The notes under the pieces are model-generated. The model made no database searches, was not told where the DNA came from, and saw only the letters and a program-made list of their open reading frames with translations. The position numbers and the translations under genes were made by a program. From Blastococcus sp. VKM Ac-2987 (GTDB lineage Bacteria > Actinomycetota > Actinomycetes > Mycobacteriales > Geodermatophilaceae): a stretch of DNA of 64,000 nucleotides. Shown piece by piece: positions 2,838 to 13,214 of this stretch; the stretch's first letter is position 1, and every line of letters begins with the position of its first letter. The DNA lies in contig NZ_JAPVBG010000003.1 of the NCBI RefSeq assembly GCF_026967805.1, positions 1-64,000 on the forward strand. The letters run 5' to 3'.

Positions 2838-3610
2838 TGCGCATCGTCCGGTACACCACCGCCGGGAACGGCGAGCCCGCCTACGGCGTGGTCGACGGGG
2901 ACGGCGACGCCGCCGCCGTCGACCGGCTCGAGGGCGCTCCCTACGACGGCCTCCGGCGGACCGGGGACCGCACGCCGCTGGCCGAGGTCACCCTGCTGGC
3001 GCCGGTCGACCCGTCCAAGGTCGTCGCCTTCGGTCGCAACTACGCCGAGCACGCCAAGGAGCTCGGCAACGAGGTGCCCGAGATCCCGATCGTCTTCCTC
3101 AAGCCCTCCACCTCCGTGATCGGGCCGGGAGCCGAGGTGGCGTACCCGGCGCTCACCTCCGACCTGCACTACGAGGGTGAGCTGGCCGTCGTCATCGGCC
3201 GCCGGTGCAAGGCCGTCGACGCCGCGGACGTCCCCGGCGTCGTCTTCGGCTACACGGTGGCCAACGACCTGACGATGCGCGACATCCAGAAGTCCGAGGG
3301 GCAGTGGACCCGCGGCAAGGGCTTCGACGGGGCCTGCCCGCTGGGACCCTGGGTGGAGACCGAGATCGACCCGTCGGCGCTGTCGCTGCGGTCCACCGTC
3401 AACGGGGAGCTGCGCCAGGACGGGACGACCGCGGACATGCTGCGCGACGTCGCGGAGTGCGTGTCGTGGGTGAGCCAGGCGATGACCCTGCTCCCCGGTG
3501 ACGTGGTGCTCACCGGCACCCCGGCCGGGGTGGGGTCGCTGCAGCGCGGCGACGACATCGAGGTGACCATCGAGGGCATCGGCACGCTGGCCACCCGCAT
3601 CACCGGCTGA
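2837..3610 (+). CDS. Fumarylacetoacetate hydrolase family protein, second copy
   Basis: A 257-residue FAH protein, more canonical than the copy at 1190. It shows VVAFGRNYAEHA near residue 60, FLKPSTSVIGPG, the metal-binding YEGELAVVIG, NDLTMRD and TGTPAGVG. This pattern is close to 2-hydroxyhepta-2,4-diene-1,7-dioate isomerase and 5-carboxymethyl-2-hydroxymuconate isomerase relatives, and to acylpyruvases. The ATG at 2837 overlaps the SDR stop by four bases (ATGA), so the two genes are translationally coupled. A longer open frame to the left is only a read through the SDR gene in another frame. Its stop codon lies inside a short hairpin shared with the convergent TetR gene. Confidence 0.88.
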   Translation: MRIVRYTTAGNGEPAYGVVDGDGDAAAVDRLEGAPYDGLRRTGDRTPLAEVTLLAPVDPSKVVAFGRNYAEHAKELGNEVPEIPIVFLKPSTSVIGPGAEVAYPALTSDLHYEGELAVVIGRRCKAVDAADVPGVVFGYTVANDLTMRDIQKSEGQWTRGKGFDGACPLGPWVETEIDPSALSLRSTVNGELRQDGTTADMLRDVAECVSWVSQAMTLLPGDVVLTGTPAGVGSLQRGDDIEVTIEGIGTLATRITG

Positions 3611-4413: not shown

Positions 4414-4458
4414 TAGCTCTTGGTACCCGCCCCGTCGCCTCCCCGGAAGGGGCATCCG

Positions 4459-6603
4459 TTGGCAGTGCCGTCGACCGACGCCCGGCCCGACGGGCTGCGC
4501 GCCCTCCTGCGCCCCCGCGGCATCGCCCTGCTCGGCATCTCCGGGCGGGCCGAGAACCTCATCTCCCGCCCGCTGCGCTACCTGGTGGAGCACGGGTACG
4601 AGGGCGGGATCTACCCGGTCAACCCGAACTACGACGAGCTGGTCGGGCAGAAGTGCTACCCGACCCTCGCGGACGTCCCGGGCCCGGTCGACCTGGTGCT
4701 GGTGCTCGTCGCCGCCGACCGGGTGGAGGACGCCATCCGGCAGGCCGCGGCCGTCGGCGCCTCGGCCGCGGTGGTCTACGCGTCCGGGTTCGCCGAAGTG
4801 GGGCCGGAAGGGGTGGCGCTGCAGCAGCGGCTGGCCGCCGTGGCCCGGGAGACCGGCGTGCGCGTGCTGGGCCCCAACTGCCAGGGCTTCCTCTACGCAC
4901 CGACCGGTGTCGTCGCCACGTTCACCGCTGCCGCCGACCGGCCGCTGGCGCACGACAGCGGCGTCGCGTACGTCGGGCAGAGCGGCGCCGTCGGCGGCTC
5001 GGTCCTCGACCTGGCCACCGACATGGGGCTCGGGCTGGCCGCCTGGGTCAGCACCGGCAACCAGGCCGACCTCGACCTGGTCCAGGTGTCGGAGGAGCTG
5101 CTGGTCGACCCGGCCGTCCGGGTGCTGATGCTCTACGTGGAGGCAACCGACGACGGGCAGGGCTACGCCGCCCTCGCCCGCCGGGCGCGCGAGGCGGGCA
5201 AGCACCTGGTCGTGCTGCGGTCCGGCCGCTCCAGCGCGGGGCGTCGTGCGGTCGCCAGCCACACCGGCTCGATGCTCGGGGACGACGTCGCGTTCGTGCT
5301 CACCTCCGAGGAGCACGGCGTCGTGCTGGTGCACGACATCGACGAGCTGCTCTCCGTGGCCGCGCTGCTGGCCACCGGCAAGCGGTCGGAGGGCAGGCGG
5401 GTCGCCGTCGTCACGACCTCCGGCGGTGCCGGCAGCCTGGCCGCCGACCAGTGCGACGACCTCGGGCTGGAGATGCCGGAGCTCGCCGCGGGCACCCAGG
5501 ACCGCCTGCGCCCCCTCATCCCCGCCTTCGGCGCCCTGGCCAACCCGGTCGACGTCACCGCCCAGCTGTTCAACCGCGGCGCGCACGCCTTCGGCGACGT
5601 CTGCCGGATCGTCGCCGACGACCCCTCGGTGGACGCCGTCGCCGTCTTCGTCACGATGGTGGTCGGCGACGCCGGCGCGCGGCTGGCCGAGGACCTGGTG
5701 GTCACCGCGGGGAAGCTGCCGGTGCCCCTCCTGGTCGGCTGGATCGCCGGCCAGGAGCTCACCACCGAGGGGCGCCGGGTGTTCCGCGACGCGGGCATCC
5801 CGGTCTTCGGCTCGGTCGGCGACGTCGCCCGGGCCGCCGCCCGGATGGCCCCGCCGGCGCACCGCGGCACCGCACCGGCGCTGCCCCCGGCCGCCGAGGT
5901 ACCCGCGGGGCGGGTCCGGGAGCTGCTCGGGACCGAGGTGGTGGACGGCGCCGGGCTGCTGGACGCGATCGGCATCGGCCAGCCCTCGTCCACGCTCGTC
6001 ACCACCCCCGAGGCGGCCCGCGAGGCGGTCGCCGCGCTGCCGGGCCCGGGCGTGCTCAAGCTGGCCGCTGCGGACCTGGCGCACAAAAGCGAGGTCGGCG
6101 GGGTGCGGGTCGGCGTCCCGGCCGAGGAGGCCGCCGCGGTCTTCACCGAGCTGGTCGAGGCGGCCCGCCACCACCACGTGCCCGGCGTCGAGGGGGTGCT
6201 GGTGCAGGAGCTGATCCCGCCGGGCACCGAGCTCATCCTGGCGGCGACCGCCGGGCGCGACGGCTTCCCCCCGGTGGTCACCGTCGGGCTCGGTGGGGTC
6301 ACCACCGAGCTCTACCGCGACATCGCCTCCGGGCTGGCCCCGGTGACCCCGGAACGGGCCTGGTCGATGCTGCGCAGCCTGCGCGCCTGGCCGCTGCTGG
6401 CCGGCTTCCGCGGCGCCCCGCCCGCCGACGTCGCCGCCGCCGTGGACGCGGTGGTGCGGCTGTCGCAGGCCGCGGCCGTCGCCGGGGACCGGCTGGTCGA
6501 GCTCGAGGTCAACCCGCTCATCGTCGGGGCGCGCGGGGGCGGGGCGACCGCCGTCGACGTCCTCGTCCGCACCGCCGGACACCGCGCTCCGCTCGGCGAA
6601 TAG
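4459..6603 (+). CDS. Acyl-CoA synthetase (NDP-forming) / acetate-CoA ligase family
   Basis: A single-chain, 714-residue ADP-forming acyl-CoA synthetase. It has a CoA-binding Rossmann domain (GIALLGISGRAE, then the VNPNY segment), succinyl-CoA-ligase-like middle domains with SHTGSM, where these enzymes carry the phosphorylated His region, and a C-terminal ATP-grasp domain (LKLAAADLAHKSEVGGV, with E and N metal ligands in LVELEVNPL). It joins a carboxylic acid to CoA, or runs in reverse. The TTG at 4459 is preferred because GGAAGGGG lies 6 bases upstream; GTG at 4465 is the alternative. It is the first gene of the operon leading to the selenoprotein and lies directly behind the TetR dyad. It ends in TAG, showing that UAG is also an ordinary stop here. 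Confidence 0.88.
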   Translation: MAVPSTDARPDGLRALLRPRGIALLGISGRAENLISRPLRYLVEHGYEGGIYPVNPNYDELVGQKCYPTLADVPGPVDLVLVLVAADRVEDAIRQAAAVGASAAVVYASGFAEVGPEGVALQQRLAAVARETGVRVLGPNCQGFLYAPTGVVATFTAAADRPLAHDSGVAYVGQSGAVGGSVLDLATDMGLGLAAWVSTGNQADLDLVQVSEELLVDPAVRVLMLYVEATDDGQGYAALARRAREAGKHLVVLRSGRSSAGRRAVASHTGSMLGDDVAFVLTSEEHGVVLVHDIDELLSVAALLATGKRSEGRRVAVVTTSGGAGSLAADQCDDLGLEMPELAAGTQDRLRPLIPAFGALANPVDVTAQLFNRGAHAFGDVCRIVADDPSVDAVAVFVTMVVGDAGARLAEDLVVTAGKLPVPLLVGWIAGQELTTEGRRVFRDAGIPVFGSVGDVARAAARMAPPAHRGTAPALPPAAEVPAGRVRELLGTEVVDGAGLLDAIGIGQPSSTLVTTPEAAREAVAALPGPGVLKLAAADLAHKSEVGGVRVGVPAEEAAAVFTELVEAARHHHVPGVEGVLVQELIPPGTELILAATAGRDGFPPVVTVGLGGVTTELYRDIASGLAPVTPERAWSMLRSLRAWPLLAGFRGAPPADVAAAVDAVVRLSQAAAVAGDRLVELEVNPLIVGARGGGATAVDVLVRTAGHRAPLGE

Positions 6604-6655: not shown

Positions 6656-7393
6656 GTGGGACAGGTACACCTGGAGAAGCAGGGCGGCGTCGCCGTCCTG
6701 ACCGTCGACAACGTCGAGGTCAAGAACGGCCTGACGCCCGAGATGGGCATGCAGCTGTCGGAGCTGTGCGAGGACATCGACCGGGACGCGACCATCGGTG
6801 CCGCCGTCGTCCGGGGCAAGGACGGCATGTTCTGCTCCGGTGCCGACCGCCGCCGCTGGACGGCGGGCTCGGACCAGGCCGAGGACAAGACCTACAAGGA
6901 GCTCGGTGCCGTCTACGAGGCGTTCCGCCGGGTGGGCGTGCTGCAGGTGCCGACGATCGCCGCCGTCCGGGGCGCCGCGGTGGGCGCCGGCATCAACCTG
7001 GCGCTGGCCACCGACCTGCGCGTCGTGTCGGAGCGGGCGCGGCTGATGGCCGGCTTCCTCCGCATCGGGCTGCACCCCGGCGGGGGCTACTTCACCATCA
7101 GCTCCCGGACGGCCGGCCGCGAGGCCACCGCCGCGATGGGGCTGTTCAGCGAGGAGATCGACGGCGTCCGTGCCGCCGAGATCGGGCTGGCGTGGAAGGC
7201 CGTGCCCGACGAGGAGGTGGAGGACCTGGCGCTGGAGCTCGCCGGCCGTGCCGCCAAGGACCCCGAGCTCGCCCGCGAGGCGGTGCGCTCCTTCCGGACC
7301 GAGGCCGGTCCGCCCGGGATCGGCTGGGAGGCCGCCCTGCACTTCGAGCGGGCCACCCAGATGTGGTCCCAGCGGCGGCGCGAGACCGCCTGA
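6656..7393 (+). CDS. Enoyl-CoA hydratase/isomerase (crotonase) family protein
   Basis: A 245-residue crotonase-fold protein. The first oxyanion-hole segment is near MFCSGADRRR and the second at VRGAAVGAGINLALA. The two glutamates that add water in classical enoyl-CoA hydratases are not evident: the first site reads GAGINLALA and the second GLHPGGG. It may be an isomerase, decarboxylase or C-C hydrolase rather than a hydratase. The GTG start has an AGGCAGGA site upstream. A decayed copy of the same subfamily is at 61004-61746 and a tail fragment at 48260-48382, so this lineage has been duplicated locally. It lies between the acyl-CoA synthetase and two acyl-CoA dehydrogenases. Confidence 0.87.
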   Translation: MGQVHLEKQGGVAVLTVDNVEVKNGLTPEMGMQLSELCEDIDRDATIGAAVVRGKDGMFCSGADRRRWTAGSDQAEDKTYKELGAVYEAFRRVGVLQVPTIAAVRGAAVGAGINLALATDLRVVSERARLMAGFLRIGLHPGGGYFTISSRTAGREATAAMGLFSEEIDGVRAAEIGLAWKAVPDEEVEDLALELAGRAAKDPELAREAVRSFRTEAGPPGIGWEAALHFERATQMWSQRRRETA

Positions 7394-7449: not shown

Positions 7450-8589
7450 ATGCAGTTCGCCGCCACCACCCTCAGCTCGGCCGAGGAGTCGCTGCGCGCC
7501 GAGGTGCGCGAGTTCCTGGCCGCCGAGCTGCCTCCGGACCACCGGCCCGCGCTCGGCTTCGCCGGGCGGCACGACCCCGCCTTCTCCCGCCGGCTCGCGG
7601 CGCGCGGGTGGGTGGGCATGGCCCTCCCGCCGAAGTACGGCGGGCACGGGCGCAGCGCGGTGGAACGGTTCATCGTCGCCGAGGAGCTCCTGGCCGCCGG
7701 TGCCCCGGTCGGTGCCCACTTCGTGGCCGACCGGCAGACGGGCCCCGCGCTGTTGCACTACGGCACCGAGGAGCAGCGCCGCCGATTCCTGCCCGGGATC
7801 GCGGCGGGGGAGATCTACTTCTCCCTCGGCATGAGCGAGCCGGACTCGGGCTCGGACCTCGCGTCGGTGCGCACCCGCGCGACCCGGGTCGACGGCGGGT
7901 GGGCCGTCACCGGCACCAAGGTCTGGACCAGCGAGGCCCACCACAACCACTTCTTCGCCGTCCTGTGCCGGACGTCGCCGATGGAGGAGGGCAACAAGCA
8001 CGCCGGGCTGTCGCAGCTGATCGTCGACCTGCAGGCGGACGGCGTGAACATCTCACCCATCCCGTACCTCGACGGCTCGCACCACTTCAACGAGGTCGCG
8101 CTCGAGGACGTCTTCGTCCCCGACGACATGGTCCTCGGCGAGATCGGGTCGGGCTGGCAGCAGGTCACCAGCGAGCTGGCCTACGAGCGCAGCGGCCCCG
8201 ACCGGTGGCTGTCGACGTTCCCGGTGCTGCGGGAGTTCCTGCGCGAGGGGCCCGGGAAGGCGGCCTCCGACGAGGAGGCGACGATGATCGGCCGGTTCGC
8301 CGCGCGGTTCTGGGCGATCCGGCAGCTGTCGCTGTCGATCGCCCGCGCCCTCGACGCCGGGCAGGCCCCGGTGATCGAGGCGGCCGTGGTGAAGGAGGTC
8401 GGCACCCGGTTCGAGCAGGACCTGGTCGAGGCGCTGCGCGTCGCGGCCGAGACCGAGCTGGACCAGGGCTCGGGGTCGCTGTTCGGCGAGCTGCTCGCCG
8501 AGGCGGTGATCACCTCGCCGAAGTACACGTTGCAGGGCGGGACGACGGAGATCCTGCGGTCGGTGGCGGCGAAGGGGCTGGGGCGATGA
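7450..8589 (+). CDS. Acyl-CoA dehydrogenase family protein
   Basis: A 379-residue flavin-dependent acyl-CoA dehydrogenase. Visible family signatures are the FAD/substrate segment YFSLGMSEPDSGSDLASV near residues 120-140, VTGTKVWTS and the C-terminal TLQGGTTEILRSVAAKGLGR, which contacts FAD. It oxidises an acyl-CoA at the alpha-beta bond and passes electrons to ETF. The ATG at 7450 follows a GAGAGGCC site. It overlaps the next dehydrogenase by ATGA; such pairs of a full-length and a shorter, divergent dehydrogenase often form heteromers in actinobacterial sterol and side-chain degradation (known for FadE pairs; inferred here). Confidence 0.92.
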   Translation: MQFAATTLSSAEESLRAEVREFLAAELPPDHRPALGFAGRHDPAFSRRLAARGWVGMALPPKYGGHGRSAVERFIVAEELLAAGAPVGAHFVADRQTGPALLHYGTEEQRRRFLPGIAAGEIYFSLGMSEPDSGSDLASVRTRATRVDGGWAVTGTKVWTSEAHHNHFFAVLCRTSPMEEGNKHAGLSQLIVDLQADGVNISPIPYLDGSHHFNEVALEDVFVPDDMVLGEIGSGWQQVTSELAYERSGPDRWLSTFPVLREFLREGPGKAASDEEATMIGRFAARFWAIRQLSLSIARALDAGQAPVIEAAVVKEVGTRFEQDLVEALRVAAETELDQGSGSLFGELLAEAVITSPKYTLQGGTTEILRSVAAKGLGR

Positions 8590-9665
8590 GCGAGGACCGG
8601 CGGATGCTGACCGAGGTGGCGACCTCGGTCCTGCGCGACCTCTGCACGCCCGAGGACGTCGTCGCCGCCGAGGCGAGCGGCTGGAGCGAGCCGCTGTGGT
8701 CGGCGCTGGCCGAGGCGGGCTTCCCGTACGTGTCGGTGCCCGAGGAGGCGGGCGGCTCGGGTGGGGACGTCGCCGACGCGGTGGCCCTGCTCCGCGTGGC
8801 CGGGCGGTTCGCCGCACCGGTACCGCTGGCCGAGGCCGGGCTGCTGGGCGGCTGGGCGCTGGCCGCGGCGGGTCTCCCGTTGCCGGAAGGCCCGCTGTCG
8901 GTGGCGGTCGGCCGGCCCGGCGACCGGGTCGACCTCACCGGCGGACCCGGCGGCTGGCGGCTGACCGCGCGGGTGCAGCGGGTGCCGTGGGGCGGGCGTG
9001 CCGAGCGGGTGGTGCTGCTGACCGGGTCCGGCGGCGAGCGGTACGTCGTGTCGGCGCCGCGCGGCGCGGCCGTCGTGGAGCCCGGCCACACCCTCGCCGC
9101 GGAGCCGCGCGACACGCTCTCCTGGGACGACGTCGAGCTGCCCGACGACGCGGTCGCGGCCGCGCCGGGCGGTGTCGACGGCGACGCGCTCCGGCTGCGC
9201 GGCGCCCTCGGGCGCGCGGCGCTGATCTCCGGGGCGCTGGAGCGGGTGGCCGAGCTGACGGTGCGCTACACCGGTGAGCGGCACCAGTTCGGCCGGCCGG
9301 TCGCGCGGTTCCAAGCGGTGCAGGCCCACCTGGTGACGATCGCGGAGGAGGCGCACCTGGCCGGGCTGGCGACCGAGGTGGCCGCGGGCAACGCCCGGCC
9401 CGATCCGGTCTTCTTCGACGTCGCGGCGGCCAAGGCGGTGGCGAGCGAGGCGGCGACCGTCGCCGCCCGCGCGTCGCACCAGGCGCACGGGGCGATCGGC
9501 ATGACCAAGGAGTACGAGCTCGGCCAGCTCAGCCGCCGGCTGTGGTCCTGGCGCGACGAGTTCGGCAGCGAGCGGTACTGGAGCCGGGAGCTCGGCCGGG
9601 CGCTGGCCGGGTCCGGCGCCGACGAGCTGTGGCCGCGGATCTCGACGGGACTGGTGAGCGCATGA
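8586..9665 (+). CDS. Acyl-CoA dehydrogenase family protein, partner subunit
   Basis: A 359-residue, more divergent acyl-CoA dehydrogenase. It has the N-terminal helical domain (LAEAGFPYVSVPEEAGG), a shortened beta-barrel domain and a C-terminal helical bundle containing RYTGERHQFGRPVARFQAVQ, the classic ACAD helix, and HQAHGAIGMTKEYELGQLSR near the end. It starts in an ATGA overlap with the preceding dehydrogenase and ends in an ATGA overlap with the flavoprotein-selenoprotein, so expression is tightly coupled. It is probably the second subunit of a heteromeric acyl-CoA dehydrogenase. Confidence 0.9.
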   Translation: MSEDRRMLTEVATSVLRDLCTPEDVVAAEASGWSEPLWSALAEAGFPYVSVPEEAGGSGGDVADAVALLRVAGRFAAPVPLAEAGLLGGWALAAAGLPLPEGPLSVAVGRPGDRVDLTGGPGGWRLTARVQRVPWGGRAERVVLLTGSGGERYVVSAPRGAAVVEPGHTLAAEPRDTLSWDDVELPDDAVAAAPGGVDGDALRLRGALGRAALISGALERVAELTVRYTGERHQFGRPVARFQAVQAHLVTIAEEAHLAGLATEVAAGNARPDPVFFDVAAAKAVASEAATVAARASHQAHGAIGMTKEYELGQLSRRLWSWRDEFGSERYWSRELGRALAGSGADELWPRISTGLVSA

Positions 9666-11122
9666 GCGCCGGAGGGGACAGCTCCTACGACGTCGCCGTC
9701 GTCGGGGCCGGTGTCGCGGGGCTCTCGGCGGCCCGGGCGGCCGCGGAGGCCGGCCTGCGGGTGATCGCCTACGACCGGCTCTCCCCCGGGGGTCAACTGG
9801 TCAACCTGACGCGGCTGCACGACCACCCGCAGCCCGGGATGTCCACGGAGGCCTGGCCGGTGGTCTCCGAACTGGTGGCGAAGGCCGAGGCCGCCGGCGT
9901 GGAAATGGGCTTCGACGAGGTCACCGGGGTGCGGGCCGGAGAGCCGGTCGTGGTGTCGACCGCCGGTGGCGAGATCACCGCCGGGGCGGTCGTGGTCGCG
10001 ACCGGGTTGTCCGCCGGCCGGCTGGGGCTCCCCGGCGAGGAGGAGCTGGTCGGGCGTGGGGTGTCCACCTGCGCCGGCTGCGACGGCCCGCTCTACCGCG
10101 GCAAGGCCGTCGCCGTCGTCGGGGACGACGACTGGACGGCGGAGGAGGCCCTCGAGCTCGCCGAGGTGGCGGCCGCGGTGACCGTGCTGGTGCCGGGCGA
10201 ACCGCGCTGGACGGCGCACCGGGCCGGCCGGCTGGCCGCGACCGACCACGTCGAGGTGCTGACCGGGGCGACCGTGACCGGGCTGCGTGCGGACGGGGTG
10301 CTGTCCGGCGTCGTCGTCCGGACCGCCGACGCCGAGCGCACCCTGCCGGTGCAGGGCGTCTTCCCCTACGTGGGGCGGCGGGGGCCGGCCGGGCTGGTCG
10401 AGGGCGTGCCGGCCGACGAGGTCGGTGCGCTGCGCACGTCGGACGGCGTGCGGACCGTCGCGGCGCGCGTGTTCGTCGCCGGTGACTGCGGGGCCGGCGC
10501 CACGCAGACCGTGGCGGCGGCCGTCGCCGGCGGGATCGCGGCGGGGGAGGCCGCGGCGGCGGCGGTGCGCCCGGCAGCGGGTCCGGGGCTGCGGATCGTC
10601 GATCCCACGGCCGGTGTCGAGCCGGCGGGCACCGACGCCGAGGAGCACGCGAGCGGGACGGCGGAGTGGACCGAGGTCGCGCTCTTCTCCAACTCCAAGC
10701 CGAACGCCACCGAGCTGCTGCGCGGGGTGGGGGAGCGGCTGCAGGCGCACTGGGAGCTGCCGGAGCTGGGCTTCGCCAGCAAGCCCAACGCGTCGGCGGC
10801 GGCCGACAAGGACGTCATCGACTGGCTGTCCCAGCGCTACAAGATGGTGCTGGTGGCGGTCGGTGATTAGGGCTCGTGCTCGTCGTGGAGTCTCCACGAC
10901 TCGGTGGAACTGGAGAAGCGTGGCGTCGTGGCACCGCTGCTGGTGACCTCGACGTTCCTGCCGCTGGTCGAGGCGCAGGCGAAGGCGCGGCGGGTCACCC
11001 CGCGCGTCATCGTGGTGCCGCACCCGGTGGGCGGGCTGAACGAGGGCGAGCTGGCGGAGCGGATCGACGCCGCCGCCGGAGCGTTGCTGCCGCTGGCCGA
11101 CGAGGCGCGGGGGGACGGATGA
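9662..11122 (+). CDS. Thioredoxin-reductase-like/UGSC fusion selenoprotein, Sec probably encoded by TAG
   Basis: The protein has 486 residues if the in-frame TAG at 10868-10870 (residue 403) is decoded. Residues 8-300 are a thioredoxin-reductase-like flavoprotein: FAD motif VVGAGVAG, redox pair C137-A-G-C140 before DG, and VFVAGDC near 271-276. The usual second GxGxxA NAD(P)H motif is degenerate (VVGDDDWTAEEAL), so the electron donor may not be NADPH. Residues 310-486 are a UGSC-family domain (LRIVDPT, FSNSKPNATELL, VLVAVGD-stop-GSC, VELEKRG, VVPHPVGG). In this family the motif is Sec-Gly-Ser-Cys or Cys-Gly-Ser-Cys, and the TAG occupies exactly the Sec place. Reading through ends at a TGA overlapping the next ATG as ATGA, like every other junction of the operon; stopping at TAG would leave a 248-base gap. 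Conventional calling would truncate it at 10870. Confidence 0.85.
10868..10870 (+). other. In-frame TAG recoding site (proposed selenocysteine codon, residue 403)
   Basis: The codon sits between GGT GAT and GGC TCG TGC, giving VGD-X-GSC, the family's invariant motif with X as Sec. At least four other genes in the window end normally in TAG (6601-6603 and 57459-57461 on the plus strand, 28069-28067 and 53424-53422 on the minus strand), so decoding here must depend on local context. In UGA-using relatives this codon is TGA. Confidence 0.82.
10882..10900 (+). promoter_or_regulatory. SECIS-like hairpin downstream of the TAG codon
   Basis: GTCGTGG (10882-10888) pairs perfectly with CCACGAC (10894-10900) around the five-base loop AGTCT. 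Counting the T of TAG as 1, the loop G is 23 and U is 24, the positions of the SelB-contacted G23/U24 in the E. coli fdhF SECIS; bases 23-26 (GUCU) are identical to fdhF. The bulged U17 of fdhF is not reproduced, since position 17 is a paired C. The element lies inside the coding sequence, as bacterial SECIS elements do. Confidence 0.7.
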
Positions 11123-12150
11123 GCGCGGAGGTGATTGAGCTCCCCGGGGTGACCGAGGAGAACTGGCACGAGGTCGCCTGGGAGCGCGGCTGGGGCGACG
11201 GGTTGCCGACCGTGCCACCGACCCCGCAGCGGGTGGCGGCGGCGCTCGCCGCGATCGACGGCGTCGACCTGGAGCTGGGGCCGGTGCCGCCGTCCGGGCT
11301 GGTGCCGACCCGGGAGAGTTTCGCGGCGAACGCGGTGATGGCCGGCTGCCGGCCGGCCGACCTGCCGGTGGTGCTGGCGGCGGTGCGCGCGCTGCTGGCG
11401 CCGGAGTACAACCTGCACGGCGTGCTTGCGACGACGCACCCGTGCGCACCGCTGGTCGTGGTGAGCGGCCCGGCGCGGACGTCGCTGGGGATCAACTGCG
11501 GCACGAACTGCTTCGGCCAGGGCACCCGGGCCAACGCGGTGATCGGCCGGGCCGTGCAGCTGGTGACCACCCACATCGGCGGGGCCCGGCCGGGGTCGAT
11601 GGACCGGTCGACGCAGGGCAACCCCGCCAAGTACACGTGGTGCTTCGGCGAGAACGAGGAGGAGAGCCCGTTCCCGCCGTTCTCGGTGCGCCGCGGGTTC
11701 GAGCCGGGGGAGTCGGTGGTGACGGTGGCGGCGTGCGAGGGCCCGCACAACATCAACGACCACGGCAGCACGACCGCCGAGGGGCTGCTGATGACCATCG
11801 CCGGGACGATGGCGCAGACCGGGTCGAACAACCTCTACGTGAAGGGCCCGCACTTCCTGGTGCTCGGGCCGGAGCACGCGGCGACCCTGCACCGCGACGG
11901 GTGGACCGCCGAAGCGCTGCGCGACCGGCTGTGGGAGCAGGCGCGGATCCCGGTCGGGAAGGTGTCGGAGGAGAACCACCGCCAGTTCGAGGACTGGGGG
12001 GTGAAGCCCGACGGCGACTTCTTCACGGTCAGCACCGGGCCGGAGATGCTGCACGTCCTCGTCGCCGGCGGTGCGGGCAAGCACTCGGCGTGGATCCCGT
12101 CGTTCGGGGCGACGGCCGCCGTGTCGCGCGCGGTGCCGGCTCCCCGGTGA
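11119..12150 (+). CDS. Conserved protein of unknown function, paralog A of a tandem pair after the UGSC selenoprotein
   Basis: A 343-residue protein whose family function I do not recognise. Marker segments are WGDGLPTVPPT near residue 25, LELGPVPP, AGCRPADLPVV, a double-Cys stretch INCGTNCFGQGTRANAVIGRA and NPAKYTWCF. No signal peptide or membrane segment is evident. It starts in an ATGA overlap with the read-through end of the selenoprotein. About half its length aligns with the next gene, so the two are ancient tandem duplicates and may form a heteromer. The conserved cysteines and the tight linkage suggest a reductive step with the flavoprotein-selenoprotein (inference). Confidence 0.85.
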   Translation: MSAEVIELPGVTEENWHEVAWERGWGDGLPTVPPTPQRVAAALAAIDGVDLELGPVPPSGLVPTRESFAANAVMAGCRPADLPVVLAAVRALLAPEYNLHGVLATTHPCAPLVVVSGPARTSLGINCGTNCFGQGTRANAVIGRAVQLVTTHIGGARPGSMDRSTQGNPAKYTWCFGENEEESPFPPFSVRRGFEPGESVVTVAACEGPHNINDHGSTTAEGLLMTIAGTMAQTGSNNLYVKGPHFLVLGPEHAATLHRDGWTAEALRDRLWEQARIPVGKVSEENHRQFEDWGVKPDGDFFTVSTGPEMLHVLVAGGAGKHSAWIPSFGATAAVSRAVPAPR

Positions 12151-13214
12151 CCGGGCCGGACCGGCCGCTGGTCGACGCCGACGCCGATCCGGCGGAAGTG
12201 CTGGTCGAGCTGCTGGCGGCCGGGCACGGGGACGGTCTCCCGGTCGTCCCGCCGACCGCGGCCCGGGTGCAGCAGATGCTGGCCGGTGCCGGGGAGCCCG
12301 ATGCGGAGCTGGGGCCCGTGCCGCCGCTGTTCGGGGCGCTGACGGTGCGCGCGGTCGCCTGGTACGCGGTGCTCGCCGGCTGCCGGCCGGCGGAGCTGCC
12401 GGTGGTGGTGTCCGCCTGCCGGGCGGCGCTGGACGACTCGTTCAACCTGCTGGGCATCTCGACGACGACCGGTGCGCCGGCGGTGGCGGTGCTCGTGCAC
12501 GGCTCGGTCGCCGCCCGGCTGGGGATGACGTCGGCAGCCGGCGGGCTGGGGACGGGGAACCGGGCCAACGCCTGCATCGGGCGGGCGGTATCCATGGCGC
12601 TGGCCGGGATCGGCGGTGCGACCGCCGGGCTGACCGACATGGCGACGATCGGCTCCCCGGCGAAGTACACCTGCTGCACGGCGGAGGGCACGAGGCCGCT
12701 GCCGTCGCTCGCGCAGCGCCGCGGGTGGGGGGTGGACGTCGACGCGGTGACGGTGATCGGGGTCGGTGGCACGGTTGAGGTGCTGCCGGGGGAGGGCTAC
12801 CGCGAGCCGCCGTCGGTGCTGGGGCCGGCCGCGGCGGCGATGGCGGGCGTCGTCCTCGCGTCGGGGCAGCCGGAGCGGGGCGCGCTCGGTGAGCAGTTCC
12901 TGCTGCTGCCGCCGGAGCCGGCGGAGCTCCTGGCGATGCACGGCTGGGGCCACGAGCGGATCGCGGAGTTCCTGTTCGAGCAGGGCAGCGCGCTGCTGCA
13001 GGCAGCGTCGTCGTCGCTGGCCTTCCGCGCCGGGATACCCGCGTACGCCGCGGGCGGGCTGACCGTGGCCGGGTCACCGGCCGACGTGCAGGTCGTCGTG
13101 ACGGGTGGAGCCGGGGTCAAGATGCTGCTGCTGCCGACGTGGATGGGCGGCTCCCGATCGGTGACGGCGCCGGTGCTGCCGCTGGGGCCGACGGCCGGCG
13201 GCGGAACGGCCTGA
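12147..13214 (+). CDS. Conserved protein of unknown function, paralog B of the tandem pair
   Basis: A 355-residue protein starting at a GTG that overlaps the preceding stop (GTGA). It shares GDGLPVVPPT, AELGPVPP, AGCRPAELPVV, GNRANACIGRAVS and GSPAKYTCC with the gene before it, in the same order and spacing. It lacks the INCGTNC pair but has adjacent cysteines in YTCC. The C-terminal half contains GGAGVK, as does paralog A. It is soluble by inspection. It is the last gene of the coupled operon; a convergent gene begins 22 bases on. Function unknown; probably a partner of paralog A. Confidence 0.85.
   Translation: MTGPDRPLVDADADPAEVLVELLAAGHGDGLPVVPPTAARVQQMLAGAGEPDAELGPVPPLFGALTVRAVAWYAVLAGCRPAELPVVVSACRAALDDSFNLLGISTTTGAPAVAVLVHGSVAARLGMTSAAGGLGTGNRANACIGRAVSMALAGIGGATAGLTDMATIGSPAKYTCCTAEGTRPLPSLAQRRGWGVDVDAVTVIGVGGTVEVLPGEGYREPPSVLGPAAAAMAGVVLASGQPERGALGEQFLLLPPEPAELLAMHGWGHERIAEFLFEQGSALLQAASSSLAFRAGIPAYAAGGLTVAGSPADVQVVVTGGAGVKMLLLPTWMGGSRSVTAPVLPLGPTAGGGTA

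Follow-up and report, generated by a model that had tools for sequence, protein, structure and literature searches.

A UAG codon predicted to encode selenocysteine in a flavoprotein-UGSC fusion of Blastococcus, and a UGA/UAG split within the Geodermatophilaceae

In a 64,000-nucleotide stretch of the genome of Blastococcus sp. VKM Ac-2987 (contig NZ_JAPVBG010000003.1, positions 1 to 64,000; hereafter the window), a gene fusing a flavoprotein related to thioredoxin reductase (TrxR) with a UGSC domain is interrupted by a single in-frame TAG. We predict that this UAG, codon 403, is very probably read as selenocysteine (Sec) by the organism's own tRNA-Sec, whose anticodon is CUA, and that a bacterial selenocysteine insertion sequence (bSECIS) hairpin beginning 11 bases past the codon likely guides this decoding. 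The initial annotation had proposed Sec at this site, and at the level of sequence the proposal is supported by the tRNA, the sel genes, and the conservation of both the TAG and the hairpin.

The interrupted fusion gene and its decoding

Translation of positions 9662-11122 yielded 402 codons, TAG at 10868-10870, 83 further codons and TGA at 11120-11122, with no other break. The TAG falls inside the UGSC motif (GD-TAG-GSC), and the interrupted frame is real as initially described, the 84 codons then counted after the TAG being 83 codons plus the stop. The elements of the gene are as follows.

9662-11122, + strand: TrxR-like flavoprotein and UGSC domain fusion, 486 residues with predicted Sec403, about 49 kDa; PF07992 97.0 bits, PF24696 122 bits
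9662-10591, + strand: flavoprotein domain, placed by profile matches; GAGVAG at 9704 and CAGC (residues 137-140, 10070-10081), which we take to be the flavin adenine dinucleotide (FAD) motif and the dithiol motif
10592-11119, + strand: UGSC domain, predicted flavodoxin-like alpha/beta fold (AlphaFold2 model and fold comparison)
10868-10870, + strand: UAG codon 403, predicted Sec
10882-10900, + strand: putative bSECIS hairpin, 8-bp stem GTCGTGGA/TCCACGAC, loop GUC, in which G23 and U24 are numbered from the codon

Against the Pfam UGSC model, the two halves around the TAG score 45.7 and 54.0 bits separately, and the read-through product matches as one stretch at 122 bits, past the PF24696 gathering score of 25. 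The equivalog cut-off of UGSC_fam NF041046 (125 bits) is missed at 109.7 bits (110.8 for the domain alone); judged by these scores, the domain is related to the NF041046 group and lies outside its core. The AlphaFold2 model (mean predicted local distance difference test score, pLDDT, 89.4) places residue 403 between a strand and the next helix of the flavodoxin-like fold. The original name, thioredoxin reductase, proved too specific: the TIGR01292 score of 185.7 bits is below the equivalog cut-off of 343.45, and the protein is TrxR-like only. Most listed homologues are named thioredoxin reductase or NAD(P)/FAD-dependent oxidoreductase. Of 1,030 homologues, the 120 listed (one of them the short frame of the window itself) have lengths of 320-414 residues and align to no more than 83% of the read-through product, so nothing beyond the TAG is covered; automatic annotation truncates the protein, as had been anticipated.

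The single tRNA-Sec of the genome (4.61 Mb in 12 contigs, completeness 99.7) lies on contig C1, has the anticodon CTA (CUA) and scores 67.7 bits against RF01852 (gathering score 47); the only other match to this model above the cut-off is a tRNA-Ser. Adjoining the tRNA gene are selA (TIGR00474, 414.3 bits, cut-off 267.9), selB (TIGR00475, 284.3 bits, cut-off 242.25) and selD (TIGR00476, 387.6 bits, cut-off 125), so that the tRNA and all three sel genes named as checks at the outset are present. In this genome TAG stands at the Sec site of the fusion, of a second UGSC gene (C6:663230) and of a formate dehydrogenase (FDH) gene (C1:1648480). SelB would bring Sec-tRNA-Sec(CUA) to the ribosome and outcompete termination at codon 403, and UAG elsewhere in the genome would remain a stop.

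The hairpin comprises 8 pairs and a 3-base loop, GUN, and the gene in the window has all eight pairs with G23-U24 in the loop. These two bases matter in the SECIS of Escherichia coli fdhF, where they occupy the same positions relative to the Sec codon. The fdhF codon is UGA, in contrast, and U17, which is bulged in the fdhF element, has no counterpart in the UGSC stem. Among distinct sequences, G23-U24 occurs in 23/23 with a Sec codon (TAG or TGA) and in 4/17 Cys relatives, while all eight stem pairs form in 20/23 Sec sequences (6, 6 and 7 pairs in the others) and in 0/17 Cys relatives. Pairs 20-28 and 21-27 are found both as G-C and as C-G, a compensatory change, and one TAG genome and one TGA genome share an identical 42-base SECIS stretch.

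Synonymous sites are nearly frozen here: pS is 0.062 in the 15 codons past the TAG versus 0.25-0.36 elsewhere. The loop serine codon AGT is invariant in 18/18 copies of the fusion, and AGT accounts for just 1 of the 138 serine codons in seven genes of the window. When synonymous codons were redrawn, a full 8-pair stem with a GU loop arose in 77 of 200,000 trials. This pattern of constraint suggests that the hairpin likely guides UAG read-through.

Selenocysteine codons across the Geodermatophilaceae

The fusion is present in 19 of 112 genomes of the family Geodermatophilaceae, and all 19 have TAG at the site. Eighteen copies are one full-length match with exactly one TAG; in the remaining genome (G005) the fusion is split between two matches that overlap, and the second of these holds the TAG. 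In 18/18 full-length copies, that of the window included, the frame after the TAG runs for 83 codons to a TGA overlapping the next ATG or GTG, and the decay after the TAG that was looked for in sister strains is absent. Within the UGSC domain, the ratio of nonsynonymous to synonymous change (pN/pS) is similar before (0.51) and after (0.45) the TAG.

A survey of UGSC proteins in 397 genomes of the order returned 97 matches. Those of the family comprise 53 with one TAG, none with TGA and 11 stop-free; those of other families comprise none with TAG, 14 with TGA and 19 stop-free. The stop position was read in 24 of the 53 TAG and 9 of the 14 TGA matches and is always the site before GSC, and alignment places Cys there in all 17 stop-free relatives in which the GSC motif was read. 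We also scanned named genomes with P1, the protein encoded directly downstream of the fusion, and took the best 80 of 387 loci, in which the UGSC site is visible in 79 and cut by a contig end in one. TAG occupies the site in 14/14 Geodermatophilaceae loci (6 Blastococcus, 8 Geodermatophilus) and TGA in 65/65 others, which range from Pseudonocardia and Actinomycetospora to Reyranella; all 79 have G23-U24 and form 7 or more of the 8 stem pairs. The alignment of residue 403 proposed at the outset thus finds Cys in Cys-type UGSC proteins and a TGA codon in other taxa.

FDH genes broaden this picture. The actinobacterial FDH model NF041513 gave 121 matches in 100 of the 112 family genomes, 116 of them with exactly one TAG; four are partial, stop-free and start past the likely Sec position (near model position 187). 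In all 11 FDH genes read (10 loci and that of our genome), TAG occupies the Sec site and is followed by G23-U24.

Of the 112 genomes, 108 yielded a tRNA-Sec, and at least one anticodon was read in each of these. CUA occurs in 101 (75 by pattern, plus 14 and 12 more), and UCA alone in 7, all from genera g5, g6 and g7. Among the 397 order genomes, 62 show the CUA pattern, every one of them from this family; genus g2 escapes the pattern entirely, so the count is not exhaustive. FDH genes of genus g7 have TGA at the Sec site in three genomes (L126 = G074, L125 = G073, L124 = G071). tRNA-Sec(UCA) is present in G073 and G074, and no tRNA-Sec was found in G071, whose genome is 74% complete. The UCA tRNAs of g5, g6 and g7, together with the TGA in g7 FDH genes, place a split between UGA and UAG inside the family.

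One family member, G058, is the only genome among the 112 in which the CUA and UCA patterns were found together. It has a resident selB-selA-tRNA-Sec(CUA)-selD locus, and its FDH and UGSC genes both carry TAG. Close to the beginning of contig C17 is another tRNA-Sec (L069 1173-1263), which has the anticodon UCA and scores 81.8 bits. About 300 bases away, an AhpD-like frame (L069 1579-2157) has TGA exactly at the U of a CFYU motif. Its read-through product scores 112.6 bits against TIGR01926 (cut-off 81.8), 51.8 bits against NF041238 (AhpD_rel_CFYUT), below the cut-off of 175, and 28.2 bits against Pfam CMD (cut-off 23); taken separately, the two halves have no Pfam match. Past the TGA lies a 7-bp hairpin with loop GUU, at a distance from the codon that is two bases shorter than that in UGSC.

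Over its first 6 kb, C17 has a G+C content of 0.62-0.66 versus 0.70-0.79 in the other full 3-kb windows of the contig, transposases of the IS30 and IS21 insertion sequence families lie at about 7-8.5 and 13.6-14.8 kb, and tblastn found no selA, selB or selD on C17. The tRNA-Sec(UCA) and the UGA-containing gene on this island-like contig end, beside native genes that use UAG, make G058 a candidate genome with two Sec codons, as judged from its sequence; alternatively, C17 may be a chimeric contig. The listing from a literature search showed no comparable case.

A broader reading, for which we see the chances as evenly balanced, would have Sec-codon identity in the Geodermatophilaceae set by the tRNA alone, leaving codons free to be exchanged or doubled. 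The move of the family from UGA to UAG would have kept the SECIS unchanged, and G058, with a single SelA/SelB, would read both codons as a result of a mobile island that carried in a tRNA-Sec(UCA) of its own and a UGA-containing AhpD-like selenoprotein gene.

The TrxR-UGSC-P1-P2 module and its proposed chemistry

The fusion gene lies in an operon-like array with the following neighbours.

11119-12150, + strand: partner P1, 343 aa, uncharacterised family
12147-13214, + strand: partner P2, 355 aa, GTG start, paralogue of P1 (38% over 324 aa)
8586-9665, + strand: acyl-CoA (coenzyme A) dehydrogenase-like protein (PF00441, PF02771), with a 4-base overlap with the fusion gene
7450-8589, + strand: second acyl-CoA dehydrogenase-like protein, named from reading the sequence, with no profile scan
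6656-7393, + strand: enoyl-CoA-hydratase-like gene, named in the same way
4420-6603, + strand: CoA-ligase-like gene, named in the same way

The 4-base ATGA/GTGA overlaps attributed to this operon hold at all four junctions checked (8586, 9662, 11119 and 12147), and the P1 start at 11119 overlaps the TGA that ends the fusion frame. In the named scan, P1 directly follows UGSC in all 79 readable loci, and a separate P2 match lies downstream of P1 in 74/80. The flavoprotein is in frame with UGSC in 14/80 loci, all Geodermatophilaceae, and is a separate gene just upstream of UGSC in 47/80; the frame test left it unplaced in 19/80, six of which have an upstream tblastn match. UGSC is also joined in one frame to P1 in Pseudonocardia acaciae (L201) and to a P1-like protein, the likeness being judged by eye, in a second UAG subfamily (L100). 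Comparison with Pfam as far as E 10 gave no match for either P1 or P2. A search with P1 at E 1e-5 returned 3,063 homologues; none of the 120 listed carries a Pfam domain, and where a name is given it is 'hypothetical'.

The CoA ligase and hydratase genes are kept in 14/14 named Geodermatophilaceae loci and both acyl-CoA dehydrogenases in 13/14. In the other named loci these genes are not kept as a block within the 6-kb flanks. Such acyl-CoA neighbours suggest that the module serves catabolism in the Geodermatophilaceae.

In eight of the named loci (L195, L196, L198, L199, L200, L202, L209 and L245), an additional UGSC-like frame near positions 3070-3304 has TGA ahead of GSCM and continues for about 460-480 codons. 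It precedes the main module in these loci, which are from Pseudonocardia and Actinomycetospora. At the spacing used by the main group, its hairpin was not seen in these frames, which form 4-5 of the 8 pairs and have no G23-U24.

Comparison with GrdB, the selenoprotein of glycine/sarcosine/betaine reductase, whose usual partner is GrdE, and with PrdB of proline reductase offers a lead on function. Of 296 genomes surveyed in the phylum, 16 gave GrdB matches; 13 matches are full-length with TGA at the Sec site. In a 134-sequence UGSC profile, the Sec segment aligns on the GrdB Sec segment with a score of 32.7, compared with at most 24.0 in 200 column shuffles and 15.1 for P1, so that Sec falls on Sec. 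UGSC shares with GrdB/PrdB (PF07355, TIGR04483) a Sec-G-[ST] that follows a strand, an E-L-E-[KR]-x-G beyond it and, further on, a P-x-G segment. It differs in length (about 170 residues versus about 430) and in being accompanied by P1 and P2. PF07355 gave no match to UGSC up to E 10, and one UGSC protein has a weak PrdB match at E 0.1. The profile alignment suggests a remote similarity to the GrdB Sec domain.

From this alignment we infer that Sec would act as a nucleophile for reductive cleavage, fed by the fused flavoprotein. Electrons would pass from NADPH to FAD, on to the CAGC dithiol and finally to a Sec403-Cys406 pair, which may be the reductive nucleophile, much as Sec is in glycine and proline reductases. 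The substrate would be held by the paralogous subunits P1 and P2.

Alternative readings and significance

Codon 403 could instead be a true stop, leaving a truncated flavoprotein and a 3′ part that is decaying or separate. That the listed homologues cover nothing past the TAG would fit such a reading, as would the use of UAG as a stop elsewhere in the genome. However, the 83-codon frame persists in every full-length copy with a pN/pS close to that of the UGSC portion ahead of the TAG, the only listed start for a separate 3′ frame (GTG at 10904) lies beyond the conserved GSC, and other taxa have TGA or Cys at the same site. We regard a true stop as very improbable. Pyrrolysine is suggested by ARAGORN, which labels the CUA tRNAs tRNA-Pyl (at L001 1497-1592 and at other tRNA loci of the family), a label that is a likely source of wrong pyrrolysine annotations. 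This assignment is scarcely credible, given that the tRNA fits the tRNA-Sec model, adjoins selA and selB, and differs from tRNA-Sec(UCA) of the same family at few positions beyond the anticodon, and that relatives carry Cys or TGA at the site. A further possibility is that UAG acts mainly as a selenium-dependent switch, yielding a useful 402-residue flavoprotein when selenium is low and the fusion when it is available. The entire flavoprotein domain does lie within those 402 residues, and in other taxa the flavoprotein is often a gene of its own. Yet the sequence gives no sign of a function for the short form, and a product ending at the UAG would contain just half of the UGSC domain, with the 4-base coupling to P1 lost; we consider a switch of this kind unlikely.

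Several observations nevertheless weigh against reading codon 403 as Sec, or against the chemistry proposed for it. The second UGSC gene of the genome (C6, near 663500; L130 8498-8743) uses TAG both as Sec codon and as terminator, so UAG is not reassigned everywhere, and with UAG still a terminator, some chains should end at codon 402. In one family genome (G079), both FDH copies (L293, L178) are without the Sec-codon stretch and change frame there; one has two TGA codons, and the TAG of the other lies at its 3′ end, off the Sec site. This frame change falls over a strong hairpin and is a candidate for either decay or an assembly fault. By single scores, the link between UGSC and GrdB is weak: the HHalign probability is 28.7% with the 134-sequence profile and ranges from 1 to 59% depending on the UGSC set. 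Electron transfer from dithiol to Sec is proposed by analogy, the roles suggested for P1 and P2 follow from adjacency and fusion, and a structure model of P1 gave no clear fold match.

The reading of codon 403 as Sec has precedents. According to PMC5330540, which cites Mukai 2016, UAG-encoded Sec with tRNA-Sec(CUA) had been reported in Geodermatophilaceae FDHs and UGSC-motif selenoproteins; PMC5330540 adds an AhpC to this list. The initial annotation's mention of that report is borne out at second hand, and on the same authority UAG-encoded Sec in FDH and UGSC proteins of the family is already published. The present case agrees with the account given there in bacterial family, tRNA-Sec(CUA), UAG at the Sec site, and the occurrence of both a UGSC-motif protein and an FDH; relative to that account, the 112-genome survey, the UCA genera and the candidate relative with two codons come from our analysis. 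As excerpted, the 2008 Global Ocean Sampling paper PMC2398784 describes UGSC-containing selenoproteins as one domain of about 170 residues with a UxxC motif, and mentions a fusion with a domain of unknown function called Unknown_1. Our protein shares the motif and the single domain of that size with these selenoproteins (PF24696, NF041046) and differs from their description in using UAG for UGA, in its N-terminal flavoprotein fusion and in its flavodoxin-like model. New here are the survey that places the UGA/UAG split inside the family, the TrxR-UGSC-P1-P2 module, the remote similarity of UGSC to the Sec domain of GrdB, and G058 as a candidate for two Sec codons.

Collectively, TrxR-UGSC-P1-P2 is a conserved, uncharacterised selenoenzyme system in Actinomycetota and Alphaproteobacteria, and the listed public homologues of its fused protein reach only up to the likely catalytic residue. 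With UAG and UGA so cleanly divided, and one SECIS sequence shared unchanged by a UAG genome and a UGA genome, close relatives offer a way to test how a Sec-codon switch evolves. If the reading of G058 is true, this member of the Geodermatophilaceae would be a natural genome with two Sec codons.

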